From: a virus
Length of the DNA stretch: 64,000 bases
IMG/VR virus record: IMGVR_UViG_3300022744_000028
Location: 1 to 64,000 of that record
Reading direction: 5' to 3' (one strand)
The translations under genes and the position numbers were made by a program. Below the pieces are notes generated by a model. It made no database searches. It was given only the letters and a program-made list of their open reading frames with translations, and had not been told where the DNA came from. Shown here piece by piece: positions 26,664 to 37,466 of this stretch. Every line of letters starts with the position of its first letter. Position 1 is the stretch's first letter.

Positions 26664-26705
26664 GTTAGATAAAATCCATGTTTGTTGTTATTGTTATGCT
26701 CGTTT

Positions 26706-26713
26706 TATTTATG
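26706..26713 (-). promoter_or_regulatory. Candidate T4-type late promoter CATAAATA
   Basis: On the minus strand CATAAATA matches the T4 late box at seven of eight positions and ends 42 bp before the gp48 start. Position at the head of the baseplate operon is what one expects for a late promoter. The region is AT-rich, so chance is possible. Confidence 0.4.
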
Positions 26714-26777
26714 TGGGGGTACTGCCGCGTTGTCTAAATACCTCGTTAGAAATAAACCAGAACAGTATCGTTTTACG

Positions 26778-27287
26778 ATGAAATCCACTTATCAGTTTGC
26801 TGCTATATGCGAGTCGCTCAATATGGCACCACTTTCTTCAGACAATTCATATCTCCCTGACTTTGAACTTGTGTGTCAGGGCGGTCAGCGTGGAAGCATG
26901 AATCCTCGCTATGGGACCAAGCATTCAGCAGAATCGGTTGCTAAAATGTCTGCATCAGCAAAAAAGCGATGGATCGAAGCGCCTAGACGAGGATTCAATC
27001 ACAGCGATGAGACGAAGAAACTCTTAAGCGATAAGGCCAAGGGTAGACGATCGCCTCGTATTGGCATTGAACCTTGGAATAAAGGCATACCCCAATCCGA
27101 AGCCGTCAAAGAAGCTATATCCAAAGCTCTCAGCGGAAAACCAAGGTCAGAAGCTGCTCGAAAATCATTGGCAGAAGGAGCTCGGCGCCGTATCAAAATG
27201 CAATGTGCCCACTGTGGTATGATTGCTGATGCGTCGAACATAGGAAGATGGCACAATGATAATTGTCGAGAAAAGGCCGTTAAATGA
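26778..27287 (+). CDS. Homing-endonuclease-like protein with NUMOD3-type repeats
   Basis: 169 residues from ATG 26778; the frame is open back to 26682 and a TTG at 26730 behind a G-rich stretch is another possible start. It contains three NUMOD3-like DNA-contact motifs: GSMNPRYGTKHSAESVAKMS, GFNHSDETKKLLSDKAKGRR and PQSEAVKEAISKALSGKPRS. A C-terminal CAHCGMIADASNIGRWHNDNC looks like the zinc knuckle found in phage endonucleases of the HNH class. No clear catalytic HNH block is visible. It lies between divergent late operons and overlaps gp4 by four bases. Confidence 0.65.
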   Translation: MKSTYQFAAICESLNMAPLSSDNSYLPDFELVCQGGQRGSMNPRYGTKHSAESVAKMSASAKKRWIEAPRRGFNHSDETKKLLSDKAKGRRSPRIGIEPWNKGIPQSEAVKEAISKALSGKPRSEAARKSLAEGARRRIKMQCAHCGMIADASNIGRWHNDNCREKAVK

Positions 27288-27724
27288 GTAAAAGCTATAA
27301 GGGCAGCTTCCGTCCCAAGAACCCATCGAAGTATAGAGGCGATCCGTCTGGTATCATTTTCAGATCGTCATGGGAATTGAAGTTTATGATATACATTGAT
27401 ACTCACCCAGACGTATTGGAATGGTCGAGCGAGGAATTCTGCATCCCATACATATCACCACTAGACGGCCGAGTGCATCGTTATTTCCCGGATTTCTGGA
27501 TTAAACAAAAGAATAGAGACGGAAACATAGAGACTCTCGTCGTTGAGATTAAGCCCAAGAAGCAAACGCAACCACCTGCTGTTCAAAAAAGAAAAACAAA
27601 ACAATACATCAATGAGGTTATGACGTGGGGTGTCAATTCCGCTAAATGGCAAGCAGCGGAAGAGTTTTGCCTCAAGAAGGCGTGGAAATTCCGCGTATTA
27701 ACTGAACAGCACTTAGGAATATAA
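27284..27724 (+). CDS. 4: Head completion protein gp4 (PD-(D/E)XK nuclease-like)
   Basis: 146 residues, near T4 gp4 (150). YKGSFRPKNPSKYRGDPSGI, then FRSSWELKFMIYIDTHPDVL and VHRYFPDFWIKQKN are strongly conserved in the family. FPDF followed by VVEIKPKK gives the PD...ExK nuclease core. gp4 (also named gp50) completes filled heads before tail joining. The ATG overlaps the end of the homing-endonuclease-like gene (ATGA), an arrangement suggesting insertion of that gene just upstream. Confidence 0.92.
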   Translation: MSKSYKGSFRPKNPSKYRGDPSGIIFRSSWELKFMIYIDTHPDVLEWSSEEFCIPYISPLDGRVHRYFPDFWIKQKNRDGNIETLVVEIKPKKQTQPPAVQKRKTKQYINEVMTWGVNSAKWQAAEEFCLKKAWKFRVLTEQHLGI

Positions 27725-28330
27725 ATGGCAGCCGTATTTGCAAATCTTCTGAAAAAGAATGTCGATGCATCGACCATTCCCACACGAACGAACGAAGCTC
27801 GTAAGTGGGTTCAGACAACTGCATCAGCAGCAATGAAGAATGCTAGGAACGTAATCAAGGCAGCTCCAGCGGTTGTTCAAAAAGGCGCTCCATCAAACTC
27901 GATCATTGGACAGATGTTGCTTTTTCAATATCAAGCAACCACAGCTAAAGACCTTCCATATTGGGACAAGTATCCTCTCGTATTTCCGTTCCACGTCGAC
28001 AGCACAGGGATGTGGGGGATCAATATGCACTACCTGCCTCATACTATGAGAGCAGCATTAATGGATCAGCTAATGACGGTCGCAACTGGCGACACGACGG
28101 ATCCCAAGACTAAATTGAAGCTATCATACACGATACTACAAGGCGCTTCGAAGAACCGTTACTTCCAACCATGTGTGAAACACTACCTAAATAAGGGATT
28201 GGCGTCTAATATTGTACCAATCCCAGCAAACGAGTGGAGCATCGCTCTATTCTTGCCATTGGAAAGATTCCAGAAAGCATCTGCATCGCAAGTTCACGAA
28301 GACAGCAAAAGAATCATTAGAAAGAGATAA
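27725..28330 (+). CDS. Conserved virion-associated protein of T4-superfamily phages
   Basis: 201 residues. The central part has a strong family look: GQMLLFQYQATTAKDLPYWD, KYPLVFPFHVDSTGMWGINM, HYLPHTMRAALMDQLMTVAT and later ANEWSIALFLPLERFQKASA. I know this pattern from structural genes beside gp4 in related phages but not its exact function; a DNA-end protector or tail-completion role would fit the neighbourhood. It starts on the base after the gp4 stop and shares one base with gp54. Confidence 0.65.
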   Translation: MAAVFANLLKKNVDASTIPTRTNEARKWVQTTASAAMKNARNVIKAAPAVVQKGAPSNSIIGQMLLFQYQATTAKDLPYWDKYPLVFPFHVDSTGMWGINMHYLPHTMRAALMDQLMTVATGDTTDPKTKLKLSYTILQGASKNRYFQPCVKHYLNKGLASNIVPIPANEWSIALFLPLERFQKASASQVHEDSKRIIRKR

Positions 28331-29247
28331 TGGCATCCCTCAACGACCGCAACCAACAGATATTAGGCACACTAGGCCTACTGGGTGGTGCTGCCAACCA
28401 ACTGTTTGGCCTCAAACAAACCACAGGCGAAAAGCGAGCTGACGAACCATTTGCTAAAGCATCTGAAGGCGTTCGTGCCGGTGTCCGCAAGTGGGGTATT
28501 GAGAAACCAAACCTAACTTACGTTGGGCTGACTCCTCCTAGTCTATTTGGAAGCGTTGTTCCTGATGCAGGGGCATTGCTATCGCAGCTAATTACACTGC
28601 GTGCTGAGCGTGTTAACCAACCTGGCGTACAGCTAATGACATCAGCAGTTAGACGTCATGGCGTCGGGCCGTTAGAAAAGAAACCATACTCAGCAGCATT
28701 TAATGACGTCAGCATTTCCTTCATTGGAGATGCTCGTGGCATCATTCACCAATACTTCTATGTGTGGATGAATGCTATCATTGGATTTGATCACATCCCA
28801 CAAGCTGGCGTTGCGCTAGATTCATTCTATGGCAAACCATTCGAGCTTGGGTATCGCGATTCGTATAAAACTACAATCGACATCGTTACTTACGACGAAG
28901 TACAACAAAAGATTGGCGTCGTTAAGTTGTACAATGCATACCCTATATTCCTAGGCGAGATTCAGAGAGATTGGGCAAGTGTCAATGACCTAGTCCGCAT
29001 CCCTGTAACATTTACATATTCACATTGGGCTTATGACGGTGCACTTGAAATGCAGCTTCGCGAACCAAGCCGCCAAACGCTATCTTCGCAGAACGCATCG
29101 TTATTCGACAACATCATGCAAGGTGCGTCTGTCCTCCAAACAATTACATCAGTCAAGAGTCCACGAAACGTCAACGATGTTCTCAATGTCGTGAACTCTG
29201 GATCTACATTATTGCGTTCTTTATTACCAAACCGACTTAACTATTAA
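28330..29247 (+). CDS. 54: Baseplate tail-tube initiator, gp54-like
   Basis: 305 residues (T4 gp54: 320). The tube-fold core reads SFIGDARGIIHQYFYVWMNA, GKPFELGYRDSYKTTIDIVT and KLYNAYPIFLGEIQRDWASV, then RIPVTFTYSHWAYDG, the pattern shared by gp54, gp48 and the tube protein gp19. gp54 sits on gp48 and nucleates the tube. A helical C-terminus rich in N and S follows. Confidence 0.72.
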   Translation: MASLNDRNQQILGTLGLLGGAANQLFGLKQTTGEKRADEPFAKASEGVRAGVRKWGIEKPNLTYVGLTPPSLFGSVVPDAGALLSQLITLRAERVNQPGVQLMTSAVRRHGVGPLEKKPYSAAFNDVSISFIGDARGIIHQYFYVWMNAIIGFDHIPQAGVALDSFYGKPFELGYRDSYKTTIDIVTYDEVQQKIGVVKLYNAYPIFLGEIQRDWASVNDLVRIPVTFTYSHWAYDGALEMQLREPSRQTLSSQNASLFDNIMQGASVLQTITSVKSPRNVNDVLNVVNSGSTLLRSLLPNRLNY

Positions 29248-29258
29248 CTGAGGTGAAA

Positions 29259-29966
29259 ATGAGTCTTCCGAAAATTAATTATCCTATCTTTGAAGTTGTT
29301 ATTCCATCATCAAAACAAAAAGTCAAGATGCGTCCATTCCTCGTCAAGGAAGAGAAGATCCTACTTACTGCGCAGACGACTGGCAACACCAGAGATGTTG
29401 TATTAGCGATCAAACAAGTCGTCAATAACTGCTTGCTAGACGACGTTGATGTGGACAAACTAGCAACATTCGACTTAGAGTACTTGTTTATTAAGTTGCG
29501 TGGGCGCTCTATTAACAACATCATCGATGTTACATACAGAGATCCTGATGATGAGCGAGACTACACACTACAAATCGATCTAGACAAAGTTGATATAGTT
29601 AATGATCCTGATCATAACTCTAATATCAAAATCAACGATCAGCTGGGATTGGTACTGCGTTATCCTAAGACGGACATGCTTAAAGCAGTCGAGCAAGCAT
29701 CATCAGAAGTTGACTTATATTTCGAAGTTATTAAGTATTGCATCGATAAAGTATACGACGAGAATGAAGTATACGACACAAAAGACTATACCGACGAAGA
29801 GCTTGTTGAATTCATAACGTCGCTTGACGTATCAACATTCAAGGAAATTCAAAAATTCCTGGAAACGATGCCAAAGCTGCACTATGAAACTTCCTACACA
29901 AACAGCAACGGCGTAGAAAAGAAAGTAGTTTTACAAAACCTCAATGATTTTTTTATATTGGGCTGA
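29259..29966 (+). CDS. 26: Baseplate hub/tail assembly chaperone, gp26-like (0-frame product)
   Basis: 235 residues from ATG 29259, chosen because AGGTGA lies 3-8 bases before it; a GTG at 29253 is also in frame. The sequence (PKINYPIFEVVIPSSKQKVK, MRPFLVKEEKILLTAQTTGN) matches the gp26 family of T4-superfamily phages (T4: 208 residues). The gene ends in AAT GAT TTT TTT ATA TTG GGC TGA. The run of seven T is a possible -1 slippery site, and the -1 frame continues for 62 codons (see next entries). It lies just before the tape measure, where long-tailed phages keep their frameshifted tail chaperones. Confidence 0.8.
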   Translation: MSLPKINYPIFEVVIPSSKQKVKMRPFLVKEEKILLTAQTTGNTRDVVLAIKQVVNNCLLDDVDVDKLATFDLEYLFIKLRGRSINNIIDVTYRDPDDERDYTLQIDLDKVDIVNDPDHNSNIKINDQLGLVLRYPKTDMLKAVEQASSEVDLYFEVIKYCIDKVYDENEVYDTKDYTDEELVEFITSLDVSTFKEIQKFLETMPKLHYETSYTNSNGVEKKVVLQNLNDFFILG

Positions 29967-30017
29967 GTCACAATACGATAAGCAACTACTATCAGTTGCT
30001 TTTTAATCTGGCTCAGC
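29948..30017 (+). other. Candidate -1 ribosomal frameshift site with nested stem-loops
   Basis: Seven consecutive T (29948-29954) are read GAT TTT TTT in frame 0, an X XXY YYZ arrangement. Seven bases later GCTGAGTCA (29962-29970) can pair with TGGCTCAGC (30009-30017), nine pairs with one G-U. Inside it AGCAACT (29981-29987) pairs perfectly with AGTTGCT (29994-30000). A -1 slip joins the gp26-like frame to the gp51-like frame, giving a 294-residue product. Confidence 0.6.
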
Positions 30018-30142
30018 ATCATCACTACTCTATCAGGGATTTTGAAGAGATGATGCCATATGAACGAGACATATATGTTGATTTGTTGAAGGATTACTTA
30101 GAGCAAGAGACAGAACGGCTTAACCAAAAGAAACAAAAATAA
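29954..30142 (+). CDS. 51: gp51-like C-terminal extension reached by -1 frameshift
   Basis: 62 codons in the -1 frame relative to gp26, running through the gp26 stop to TAA 30140-30142, three bases before the tape-measure ATG. It encodes NYYQLLFNLAQHHHYSIRDF, then EEMMPYERDIYVDLLKDYLE and a charged tail. The EEM-PYERDIYV pattern resembles the second tail chaperone (T of G/GT; gp51 of T4 relatives). No good ATG and Shine-Dalgarno exist for independent translation: the first ATG pair is at EEMM, well inside the conserved part. Frameshifting is the simplest reading. Confidence 0.6.
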   Translation, partial: YIGLSHNTISNYYQLLFNLAQHHHYSIRDFEEMMPYERDIYVDLLKDYLEQETERLNQKKQK

Positions 30143-30145
30143 CAA

Positions 30146-32434
30146 ATGGCCAATATACTAGACGCAGCAGCACAAGGAACAAGAAACACGGTAGCAGGAG
30201 CAGCTCGAACTGCTAAAGAAGCTGTGATGGATCAGTTCGACCCACGCAAATCAATATATGGTTTGGGGTTAGGTGTTGGCCCGTTAATTAGACAAACTGT
30301 CCTCGAGTATAAAAAGCAGTCCGCCAAAGACAAGAAAGACGGCACACAGCAACAAAAAAAGCTAACCGAGATCAAGAAGACCGGCGATGCAGGCAACAAG
30401 TCACTACAGCGGACCGTGGCTCAGTTGAGTAGCATGAATTCCTTGTTGAAAGAGATTCATAAAATCAACATTGCACAGTTGCAGGCCCAAAGAAGCTTCA
30501 ATAAAGGCCAACGCGGCAACATTAATCGTAGTGCGTTCCGTAATAGTAATGATCCCACAGATCAGAAGATCATTAGCTCCAGCATGGTCGATCGCGACGA
30601 CATCGTAGGAAAGAAAGCAGACCCTGGCGGCAATTCGCTTGAGGGTATCGGTACGCTCATTAAGATTGTAGCGGGCGGTCTTGCAGCTGGCGAAATCTGG
30701 AAGATGCTCCCTCCAGACATGAAGAAGGATGTACAGCAAGGTGCCAAAGCAATAGACGATGTAGTAATCAAAACTACCACCGACATGTGGAAGTCTGCGT
30801 TTGAGGCTGCACCAGTTACAACAGCATTAGGTACTATATTTTTAGCTAAAATTAGTGGCGTACTTGATGTAGCGTTAGCTGCTGCTCGCGTAGCTACTAC
30901 GACAGGCAAGGCCGCATACAACGTTGGTAAGTTTATTACACAACCACTACCATCAGCAACCACGGCTATCGAGACTTCGACGCGAGTGCCTACAGCACCG
31001 ATAGCTCAGGCGCCCGGCATAGCCAATACTATTCGCAGAACGCTCGGCATGGAACAGCAGCTTGTTAATGCGTCAAAGGAATCCGCCGACATTGGCACTA
31101 AGACGGGAATTAAGGCGGCCGCGCAAGAATATAAAGAGCTGGCTAAGAGCACTACTACTCAATACGCAAACGAAACATTTGCAAAGAGATATGGTGATCA
31201 AGGGTTGGAGGCAGTTAAGAATGTAGCGAACCCAGTAACACCAACTGCAGCCGCAACCGCAACAGAAGCAGCTAAGAGCGGAGAGGCTGCAGCAGCCACT
31301 GCTACTAGCACATCAAAGATTGCAGCAACGTTTGGTAAAGTGGTCGGCGTAGCATCAAAGGCCCTTGGCGTGTTGGGTGTAGCTGGGAGTGGTTATTCAG
31401 CTTACGAAAACTACAATGCTGGCAACAAAAAACTAGCTGCGTTAGATGCTATATCAGCTACCACTGGTGGACTAGCTTTGGCAGCTGGAGCAACTGGCAT
31501 TGGAGCGCCGGTAGCAGCGGCACTTGGTGGCGTATCTCTAATCACTGGATTGGCGTCAATGGTGGGTTCACGATTTGTGGACAATCAGTCAAGCAACGTC
31601 CAACCACAACAAGATACCGCCGGAAATAAAGCTGCGTCGAATGCATCTCAGCAAGAGATGAAGGCCGTAATCGAAGAAGTGTTTAGATCTAAAGGGTTCG
31701 GCGAAAACCAAATTAAAGCTGCGCAGATTGTTGCAGCAGCCGAGTCAGGACTCAATCCATCCGCCCGCAATACAAGTGGAGGCGAAGACAGCGTCGGTCT
31801 CTTCCAATTGAATAGAAAAGGTGGCGAAGGCACACCATACACAGTCCAACAACTTCTTGATCCTAAGTTTAACGCTGGTGTTGCAGCTGGCAAGATGTCA
31901 GGTAAACAAGGGGATGCGTTTAGAAACGCCAAGTCAGTTGAAGAAGCCGTTGCAGCACTTACGCGAGACTTTGAGCGTCCACATTTTGTAAAGGGTGGTA
32001 GCATAGTCGACGGCAAAGCATTCGCAGCATATGCTGCCCGAGGATCGAATATCGTCGGTGGAAGTATAGACGGCACTGCACTGGCATCAGCTGCTACTGC
32101 GACCGGCACATCCTTAGCATCTTCTTCGGCCATACAAGCTACTGATCTTAAAAATATGGGTCTAGCTAGCGATCAGATTGCCGCTGTAACAGAGTTCCAA
32201 AAAGCGATTAAGGGATTTGAGGGTGGCGGAATGTTTGACTCAGATATCAATAGCCTCATGCAAGCATTTGCTGCTGCAACATCAGCAGCACCCACTAACG
32301 CTGCTCCCTCAGGTGGCAGTAACAAGACACCTCCGTCCGTGCCTCCTGTTAGCATGTACAAAGAGAAACACTCTTTTGGACAAGCGAAAGCACCGTGGTA
32401 TGCGTCAGGCGGATCGATCCCATCGTTCACATAA
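30146..32434 (+). CDS. 29: Tape-measure/baseplate hub protein, gp29-like, with lysozyme-like domain
   Basis: 762 residues (T4 gp29: 590). It directly follows the tail chaperones, the usual tape-measure position. The N-terminal 170 residues are basic and helical; residues about 175-300 and 400-490 contain Ala/Gly-rich hydrophobic stretches (AAGATGIGAPVAAALGGVSL), typical of tape measures. Residues about 510-635 look like a soluble lytic transglycosylase: AAQIVAAAESGLNPSARNTS, then GGEDSVGLFQLN, where the Glu of AAES would be catalytic. This could replace the lysozyme missing from the gp5-like spike. The gene ends at a bidirectional terminator. Confidence 0.75.
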   Translation: MANILDAAAQGTRNTVAGAARTAKEAVMDQFDPRKSIYGLGLGVGPLIRQTVLEYKKQSAKDKKDGTQQQKKLTEIKKTGDAGNKSLQRTVAQLSSMNSLLKEIHKINIAQLQAQRSFNKGQRGNINRSAFRNSNDPTDQKIISSSMVDRDDIVGKKADPGGNSLEGIGTLIKIVAGGLAAGEIWKMLPPDMKKDVQQGAKAIDDVVIKTTTDMWKSAFEAAPVTTALGTIFLAKISGVLDVALAAARVATTTGKAAYNVGKFITQPLPSATTAIETSTRVPTAPIAQAPGIANTIRRTLGMEQQLVNASKESADIGTKTGIKAAAQEYKELAKSTTTQYANETFAKRYGDQGLEAVKNVANPVTPTAAATATEAAKSGEAAAATATSTSKIAATFGKVVGVASKALGVLGVAGSGYSAYENYNAGNKKLAALDAISATTGGLALAAGATGIGAPVAAALGGVSLITGLASMVGSRFVDNQSSNVQPQQDTAGNKAASNASQQEMKAVIEEVFRSKGFGENQIKAAQIVAAAESGLNPSARNTSGGEDSVGLFQLNRKGGEGTPYTVQQLLDPKFNAGVAAGKMSGKQGDAFRNAKSVEEAVAALTRDFERPHFVKGGSIVDGKAFAAYAARGSNIVGGSIDGTALASAATATGTSLASSSAIQATDLKNMGLASDQIAAVTEFQKAIKGFEGGGMFDSDINSLMQAFAAATSAAPTNAAPSGGSNKTPPSVPPVSMYKEKHSFGQAKAPWYASGGSIPSFT

Positions 32435-36589: not shown

Positions 36590-36982
36590 ATGCAATACTT
36601 CACATACTTATGGATTGATAAATCGCGAAAAATGTTTTATGTTGGTGTACATGAAGGACATATCAACGATAGCTACATTTCATCGAGCAGATGGTTCAAC
36701 GGCGAATATCAATATCGACCTAATGATTTTAAGCGTAGGGTTCTTAAACTCTTTAACGACAGAGCCTCAGCAACAAAGGAAGAGTCTCGATTGCTTGCTC
36801 TAATTAAAGAGGAAGAGTATGGCAGCAGGTACTACAATCTTAAAACCGGTCGACCTAAAGGCACACCAGCATCCAACAAGGGCAAGCCAATGTCCCCAGA
36901 ACAGCGCGAAAAGCTTAGCAAGGCTAAGCTAGGAAAGCCATCTGTGAGGAAAGGCATTCCTAATAAAAATAAAGCTAGTTGA
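36590..36982 (+). CDS. GIY-YIG-like homing endonuclease with NUMOD3 motif
   Basis: 130 residues, behind TTGGAGGATAAAA. The N-terminus reads FTYLWIDKSRKMFYVGVHEG, in the place of the GIY...YVG core, followed by SYISSSRWF. The C-terminal part has the NUMOD3-type DNA contact KGTPASNKGKPMSPEQREKL. The family cuts DNA at a specific site to spread its own gene. The gene is plus strand among minus-strand neighbours, and its last three codons (GCT AGT TGA) form part of the tmRNA terminator stem read from the other strand, so it abuts the tmRNA directly. Confidence 0.7.
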   Translation: MQYFTYLWIDKSRKMFYVGVHEGHINDSYISSSRWFNGEYQYRPNDFKRRVLKLFNDRASATKEESRLLALIKEEEYGSRYYNLKTGRPKGTPASNKGKPMSPEQREKLSKAKLGKPSVRKGIPNKNKAS

Positions 36983-37005
36983 TTCTGTTTCCAAGTTCAA
37001 CTAGC
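36974..37005 (-). terminator. Intrinsic terminator of the tmRNA transcript
   Basis: On the minus strand GCTAGTTGA pairs with TCAACTAGC (nine pairs, 14-base loop) and is followed by TTTATTTTTATT. It lies 18 bases after the tag stop codon. CTAGCA/TGCTAG (37038-37033 with 37006-37001) could form the P5 helix and would share a few bases with it. Confidence 0.75.
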
Positions 37006-37277
37006 AAAACTCATGCAGTGCAATTAAGCAGCTGCTAGGAATAACTCATCGTTTGCAGTTATTGATTTTGCTTGATTTACGGTCATCGCCTACCGTGTTG
37101 CCGTCTCTACTATCTACCCCTGTCGAAACCAAGTGCACCCCCATCAAAAACACACCAAGTTAGTATTCAGATACATTGAGCTATCTAACTACGTCCTAAT
37201 CCAATGTTCTTAGGTATGCTTTTGGTGGAAGTGGCGGGATTCGAACCCGCGTCCAGAAGTCCTTCGCTTTGAAGGGA
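37001..37277 (-). ncRNA. ssrA: Circularly permuted two-piece tmRNA (ssrA)
   Basis: Read on the minus strand, the acceptor piece comes first: TGGACGCGGGTTCGAATCCC then GCCACTTCCACCA, a T-arm (GCGGG/CCCGC) with encoded CCA at 37223. After an 80-base spacer the coding piece begins at 37142 with GGGGGTGCACTTGGTTTCGA then CAGGGG, the tmRNA 5' signature. The two ends form a seven-pair acceptor stem, GGGGGTG with CACTTCC, including the G3-U70 wobble that alanyl-tRNA synthetase requires. A tag frame follows. Possible PK1 stem: ACGGT/ACCGT (37094-37090 with 37081-37077 approximately). The order acceptor-spacer-coding is that of permuted tmRNAs of alphaproteobacteria, some betaproteobacteria and some cyanobacteria. 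The 5' limit of the acceptor piece is uncertain. tmRNA with SmpB rescues stalled ribosomes. Confidence 0.9.
37024..37056 (-). other. tmRNA tag-peptide reading frame
   Basis: Codons GCA AAC GAT GAG TTA TTC CTA then GCA GCT GCT TAA encode ANDELFLAAA and stop. With the alanine carried by the tmRNA the appended tag would be A-ANDELFLAAA. It keeps the ANDE start and AA end used by SspB/ClpX-type proteolysis. Resume codon GCA is preceded by CAATAACT. Confidence 0.9.
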
Positions 37278-37466
37278 TTACAACAATTCCTCGAGCTTCT
37301 CCAATCTAGGAATTTTCTTTTTTTCCTTTTTGCGGGAGTAGCCACAAGCTCCACATTTACCATAATCACCAACAACATCACGATCGCAACGGCCGCACCA
37401 CATGCTTTTGAGGCCGTCCTTGCGAGCAGCCATTCCGCTGCGTCTATTTGATTTTGTTAGGATCAT
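37278..37466 (-). CDS. Small zinc-ribbon protein, 62 residues
   Basis: Contains MWCGRCDRDVVGDYGKCGAC, a CxxC-x10-CxxC zinc ribbon at residues about 22-41, then a very basic lysine stretch (SRKKEKKKIPRLEKLEELL). An internal ATG at residue 12 is another possible start. It ends immediately before the tmRNA acceptor piece and starts nine bases after the upstream zinc-ribbon gene, so the three could share a transcript. RNA or DNA binding is plausible but not shown. Confidence 0.6.
   Translation of the reverse strand: MILTKSNRRSGMAARKDGLKSMWCGRCDRDVVGDYGKCGACGYSRKKEKKKIPRLEKLEELL

Follow-up and report, generated by a model that had tools for sequence, protein, structure and literature searches.

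How could a T4-like phage make two tail-assembly chaperones from a single gp26-like gene? The question is raised by the first 64,000 nt of virus record IMGVR_UViG_3300022744_000028, which we refer to as the window. The 71.7-kb record, itself a fragment, contains one gp26-like copy and, instead of a full-length gp51 gene, a 64-codon frame in the -1 phase; a separate in-frame gene for the long form, as in the two-gene arrangement of T4, was not found in this fragment. We consider it very likely (probability about 0.93) that a programmed -1 frameshift at T_TTT_TTT yields a short and a long chaperone from the one gene, a reading that rests on comparative sequence analysis. Most ribosomes would stop at 29964 and release a gp26-like short chaperone (TAC-N) of 235 residues, and a minority, aided by a stem 7 nt downstream, would slip back by one base and produce a 294-residue fusion (TAC-NC) carrying an added gp51-like helical domain at its C-terminus. 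If the two act like lambda gpG/gpGT, the short form would coat the tape-measure protein, the long form would recruit tail-tube subunits, and both would be absent from the finished tail.

Layout of the locus and its slip heptamer

In the window, homologues of gp4, gp2, the tail-tube protein and gp26 form a T4-like tail module and are followed by a long gene in the tape-measure position (Table 1). The gp26-like protein, whose ATG is preceded by GAGGTG, gives a full-length match to the Pfam profile T4_baseplate (PF12322, E 8.8e-58) and also matches PHROG 150 ('baseplate hub', E 2.2e-65). From its position and length we infer a tape-measure role for the long gene, which carries a lysozyme/SLT-like domain at residues 514-581 and starts 3 nt past the stop of the -1 frame, with no clear Shine-Dalgarno site at its ATG. 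In 31 of 40 lineages a long ORF begins at -11 to +10 relative to the -1 stop, which suggests that translation of the tape-measure gene may be coupled to the frameshifted frame. Two overlapping frames, the second in -1, lie directly upstream of the tape-measure gene, just as the short and the -1-frameshifted long form of lambda (gpG/gpGT) and HK97-type phages immediately precede theirs in the available text of PMC5009743.

Table 1. Positions of the features discussed, in window coordinates
Feature	Position	Strand	Evidence
gp4 homologue	27284-27724		
gp2 homologue	27725-28330		
Tail-tube protein homologue	28330-29247		
gp26-like gene, short tail-assembly chaperone (TAC-N), 235 aa	29259-29966	+	PF12322 and PHROG 150 matches
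Slippery heptamer T_TTT_TTT, in phase with the gp26 frame	29948-29954	+	Conservation, codon uniformity
-1 frame, gp51-like C-terminal domain (TAC-C), TAA included	29948-30142	+	PHROG 634, conserved peptide
9-pair stem, 5' arm, holding the gp26 stop TGA (29964-29966)	29962-29970	+	Fold, covariation
9-pair stem, 3' arm	30009-30017	+	Fold, covariation
Inner hairpin in the stem loop, 8 pairs (29980-29987/29994-30001)	29980-30001	+	Fold
Putative tape-measure gene with lytic-transglycosylase/lysozyme-like domain	30146-32434	+	SLT_3 E 3e-08, position, length

The gp26 frame closes with GAT TTT TTT ATA TTG GGC TGA. The seven-T run that the initial annotation had noticed at the end of the gene is present and in phase: an X_XXY_YYZ-type site, T_TTT_TTT, is read as GAT TTT TTT ATA, 16 nt before the TGA. 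By itself a T7 run is unremarkable, the two strands of the window having 6 where 15 are expected; what is noteworthy is its phase, its place and its conservation. Among 80 IMG/VR loci picked by gp26 protein similarity only, all 80 have an in-phase heptamer of six or more T's near the stop, and loss of the run in close relatives keeping both frames, which the initial annotation had named as a refutation, was not seen. Annotated phages that are not of the T4 type, examined by region, have the heptamer in 12 of 14 cases (7/8 and 5/6), as do two further Synechococcus phages. Cyanophage or Aeh1 gp26 queries retrieved 87 loci, and all 86 that could be assessed carry it, as T_TTT_TTC in 83 and T_TTT_TTT in 3. 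With the window included, near-duplicates counted and T4-type phages excluded, the in-phase heptamer is found at 181 of 183 loci, missing only in two distant Vibrio phages (L086 and L097). A sequencing error, or a decayed gene split by a frameshift, would have the homopolymer at the junction in its favour and nothing more; recurrence of the same arrangement at 181 of 183 loci, in many assemblies and in cultured phages, refutes this explanation, whose probability we regard as negligible.

The codons of the site are constrained as well. Clustering at 90% nucleotide identity gave 56 clusters, 53 of which have the FF motif encoded by the heptamer. The codon preceding FF ends in T in all 53 (GAT 50, AGT 2, GGT 1). 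TTT likewise encodes the first Phe in all 53, against 392 TTT to 279 TTC for the other Phe codons of the same genes (Fisher p 1.8e-12); the second Phe is TTT in 43 and TTC in 10. Of 74 conserved columns ranked by codon uniformity over 42 IMG/VR clusters (median 0.57), those of the slip codons took ranks 1-3.

The -1 frame and its gp51-like extension

The -1 frame opens exactly at the heptamer, with a stop codon just upstream, and ends with TAA at 30140-30142; the predicted fusion has the length that the initial annotation had given. Its extension matches PHROG 634 ('baseplate hub assembly catalyst', E 3.8e-22) over positions 56-117 of the 121 in the profile. In those IMG/VR loci with a long enough contig the frame stays open for about 150-190 nt beyond the gp26 stop, and its codons 7-14 show mismatches of 0.21, 0.20 and 0.58 at codon positions 1, 2 and 3, respectively. 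The peptide following FF is conserved from its first codon (consensus Y..LSH..L.NYY), which in the window and in many relatives precedes any usable start. A tblastn search with the extension found 569 phage records and, among the matches listed, 60 of 60 begin at FF, upstream of the gp26 stop.

Could the gp51-like protein instead be made separately from a start of its own, by internal initiation or by reinitiation after the gp26 stop? Cyanophage GenBank annotations imply as much, and several records annotate the gp51-like part as a separate CDS, but the annotated starts vary among phages, and some records place no gene over the extension at all (e.g., S-PRM1, DSL-LC03 and Aeh1). In the window, the first start candidates are a TTG at codon 17, with no Shine-Dalgarno site, and ATGs at codons 35-36, in agreement with the earlier description of a frame that lacks a good start and reaches to three bases before the tape-measure gene. 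Several relatives (L007, L022, L039 and L050) have no start before codon 42-46, although conservation of the peptide sets in at the slip codons. The two Vibrio phages mentioned above bear on the question from the other side: L086 (Vibrio D532, 2212-2217) and L097 (Vibrio GR28A, 2158-2162) have no slip site, keep the gp51-like -1 frame and have a TAATG overlap at the gp26 stop, so the -1 frame can be expressed otherwise, and a switch from frameshifting to reinitiation is possible in these two. An ATG overlapping or closely following the gp26 stop also occurs in some slip-bearing phages (L089, L094 and L095). A separate start would also leave the constraint on the slip codons unexplained. We regard it as highly unlikely for the window, and favour the frameshifted fusion.

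Structure prediction lends the short form some further support as a chaperone. Its AlphaFold2 model (pLDDT 89.4) has as its top Foldseek match in the PDB the HK97 tail assembly chaperone 2ob9, at a non-significant E of 0.8, and the best PDB matches by VIA-align are 3fgx (Z 7.8), 2ob9 (Z 7.5, 84 residues) and YqbN 3klu (Z 7.2), the next unrelated row having Z 2.3. The likeness to the HK97 protein is weak and partial, limited to the N-terminal ~85 residues, and these matches support a chaperone fold while falling short of proof. Sequence searches of solved structures with the short form and with the extension gave no significant match. Among predicted structures, the top match came from Acidovorax phage ACP17, in whose first 50 kb no match was found. 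The extension alone was modelled, at modest confidence (pLDDT 77.9), as four helices.

Candidate stimulators of the proposed frameshift

The nine-pair stem that the initial annotation had placed seven bases past the T run is found there, with one G-U pair and a loop of 38 nt. Folding of the region 29955-30040 gives -24.9 kcal/mol (z -4.86), a value that none of 200 shuffles reached. Covariation was assessed in an ungapped alignment of 40 clusters, in which the nine pairs make up 360 cells. Paired bases occupy 91.4% of these cells, compared to 19-38% in slid controls, and two-sided changes occur at five of the nine pairs, in 26 cells versus 4.6 +- 4.1 in shuffles (0/500). Because the region codes for protein, codons were also shuffled among sequences within column and residue; complete stems were observed in 29 of 40 clusters against 14.9 +- 1.8 in this control, and the 26 two-sided changes against 11.0 +- 1.7, with 0 of 500 shuffles reaching the observed value in either case. 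The stem therefore covaries across 40 lineages beyond what protein conservation accounts for. Sequence relatedness can inflate such counts, and protection against this comes mainly from the slid and codon controls. In an unguided scan of the 40 lineages for helices of four or more pairs over 150 nt, the nine-pair stem was the only substantially covarying helix; the same scan gave no sign of a pseudoknot, as it returned no second such helix.

The stem is not universal, since 9 of 41 IMG/VR clusters have z above -1.9 downstream of the heptamer and 11 of 40 lack the complete set of nine pairs. The second hairpin described as nested inside it exists in the window, but is kept only there and in the four closest clusters (L003, L005, L006 and L008; 7-8 of 8 pairs), the other 36 of 41 IMG/VR clusters having 0-6 of 8. 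A pattern search combining slip site and stem yielded at least 119 stretches of contig; since the stem was a selection criterion, these do not count as evidence for it. An upstream SD-like site occurs in only 3 of 42 clusters of the window group.

Kyanoviridae (cyanophage) loci, such as those of S-SM2 and S-RIM8, share the genes, their order and the -1 phase with the window and have T_TTT_TTC as heptamer (72/72 clusters of this type). Ser ahead of the slip is encoded by AGT or TCT in 68 of 68 clusters, compared to 712 of 1140 Ser codons in the same genes with the site included (Fisher p 4e-14). Where the window has its nine-pair stem, the cyanophages have instead an SD-like GAGG located 9-10 nt upstream, together with a small hairpin of five pairs; the columns of the window stem are paired in 52% of cells in this type. 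The SD-like GAGG/AAGG ends 10 nt (57/71) or 9 nt (14/71) before the heptamer, and the Glu of a conserved upstream LEGL motif is encoded by GAG in 57 of 72 clusters versus 592 of 1823 elsewhere (p 2e-15). The hairpin lies 10 nt downstream and has all of its pairs in 40 of 72 clusters, against 25.9 +- 2.4 under codon shuffling (0/300). Downstream z-scores were computed with dinucleotide shuffles for the IMG/VR clusters and mononucleotide shuffles for the cyanophages, and the two sets were kept apart. Judging from these patterns, the cyanophage stimulators may be a selected upstream SD-like GAGG and a small covarying hairpin, a pairing that recalls dnaX. Cyanophage records give two annotated genes or miss gp51, and the available text of Sullivan et al. 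2010 (PMC3037559), from which the word 'frameshift' is absent, describes cyanophage gp51 without its first ~200 residues; the present data account for those missing residues.

The two sets of candidate stimulators also bear on where slippage would take place. If RNA polymerase added or dropped a base in the T run, normal translation would give the same fusion, and the 7-8 T's of the window group would be compatible with this. Polymerase slippage, however, usually requires longer homopolymers; the cyanophage type has six T's followed by C in 72 of 72 clusters, phiM9 has T_TTT_TTG, and a covarying stem spaced 7 nt away, or an SD-like site upstream, suits ribosomes. We consider transcriptional slippage extremely improbable, and a ribosomal shift very probable.

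T4 relatives, earlier work and neighbouring features

T4 has the same two protein families as the window. In a search of ten proteins, the fusion profile aligned to T4 gp26 (E 1.8e-11), which stops at the same FF, and to T4 gp51 (E 1.9e-10) across the junction in one frame, and the extension profile matched T4 gp51 (E 2.5e-06); phages VR5 and E33 show the same alignment pattern. T4 gene 26 ends GAG TTC TTT GAG, and GAG TTC TTT, without a slip site, is shared by VR5; loss of the site was read in these two phages only, a search of viral contigs with T4 gene 26 having given 6 loci. Because gp26 ends at FF without a slip site and gp51 spans the junction in one frame, T4 itself appears to do without frameshifting and to encode the short (gp26) and long (gp51) forms as separate genes, whereas the window would make the long form as a -1 frameshift fusion.

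The G/GT organisation proposed by the initial annotation is supported for the window by several features: the slip site, a coding -1 frame that lacks a good start, the downstream stem, homology to gp26/gp51, and a location just ahead of the tape-measure gene. No sequence relation to lambda or HK97-type chaperones is shown, and the window differs from these in its conserved, covarying, long-loop stem; the lambda slip site, G_GGA_AAG, also differs from T_TTT_TTT. The further proposal of unifying T4 gp26/gp51 with this scheme holds insofar as T4 gp26 and gp51 align to the short and the long form, respectively, but T4 lacks the slip site, and the unification is already published. The T4-like tail-assembly-chaperone genes 26/51 were named by Vladimirov, Gautam and Davidson (2022, Virology 566:9-15), as cited in PMC12846349 and PMC10885494; separate encoding of the two forms in T4 is also what its title and these citing papers conclude. 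PMC12846349 refers to known poly-T slip sites in the TAC-N genes of T4-like phages, and according to PMC10885494 some T4-like phages carry a short gene alongside a fused long one; an earlier review made T4 an exception (PMC5009743). The frameshift itself is thus known in phages, including some T4 relatives. No description of the window stem or the cyanophage SD-like site was found in the literature searched, which covered Vladimirov et al. through its title and citing papers, and what is new may be the stimulators: the covarying long-loop stem over the gp26 stop, and the cyanophage GAGG with its small hairpin.

We lean towards a single ancestral frameshift in the T4 superfamily in which the heptamer was kept and the stimulators were swapped. 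The aquatic window group would have the covarying nine-pair stem with its 38-nt loop around the short-form stop, the cyanophages the SD-like site and small covarying hairpin, T4 would have moved to a second gene, and some Vibrio phages to a stop-start overlap. Stem, SD-like site, separate gene and stop-start overlap are natural alternatives for the same two proteins and can be compared directly. The locus adds a clean case, backed by statistical controls, of probable programmed frameshifting among a large group of environmental T4-like phages, and it shows that records enter the long chaperone as two genes or omit the extension.

Two other features of the window were observed. A NUMOD3-type homing endonuclease ORF (26682-27287, +; PF07460 E 7.9e-11; PHROG 655) lies between the divergent gp48-like and gp4-like genes. 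A permuted two-piece tmRNA with the tag ANDELFLAAA is encoded at 36933-37337 (-), scoring 144.6 bits with RF04321 and 139.6 bits with beta_tmRNA (RF01850), a match that suggests a betaproteobacterial host. Two-piece tmRNAs are already known in aquatic phages, according to the available text on Melnitz (PMC9004378), and were matched here in 11 of 15 virus records searched.
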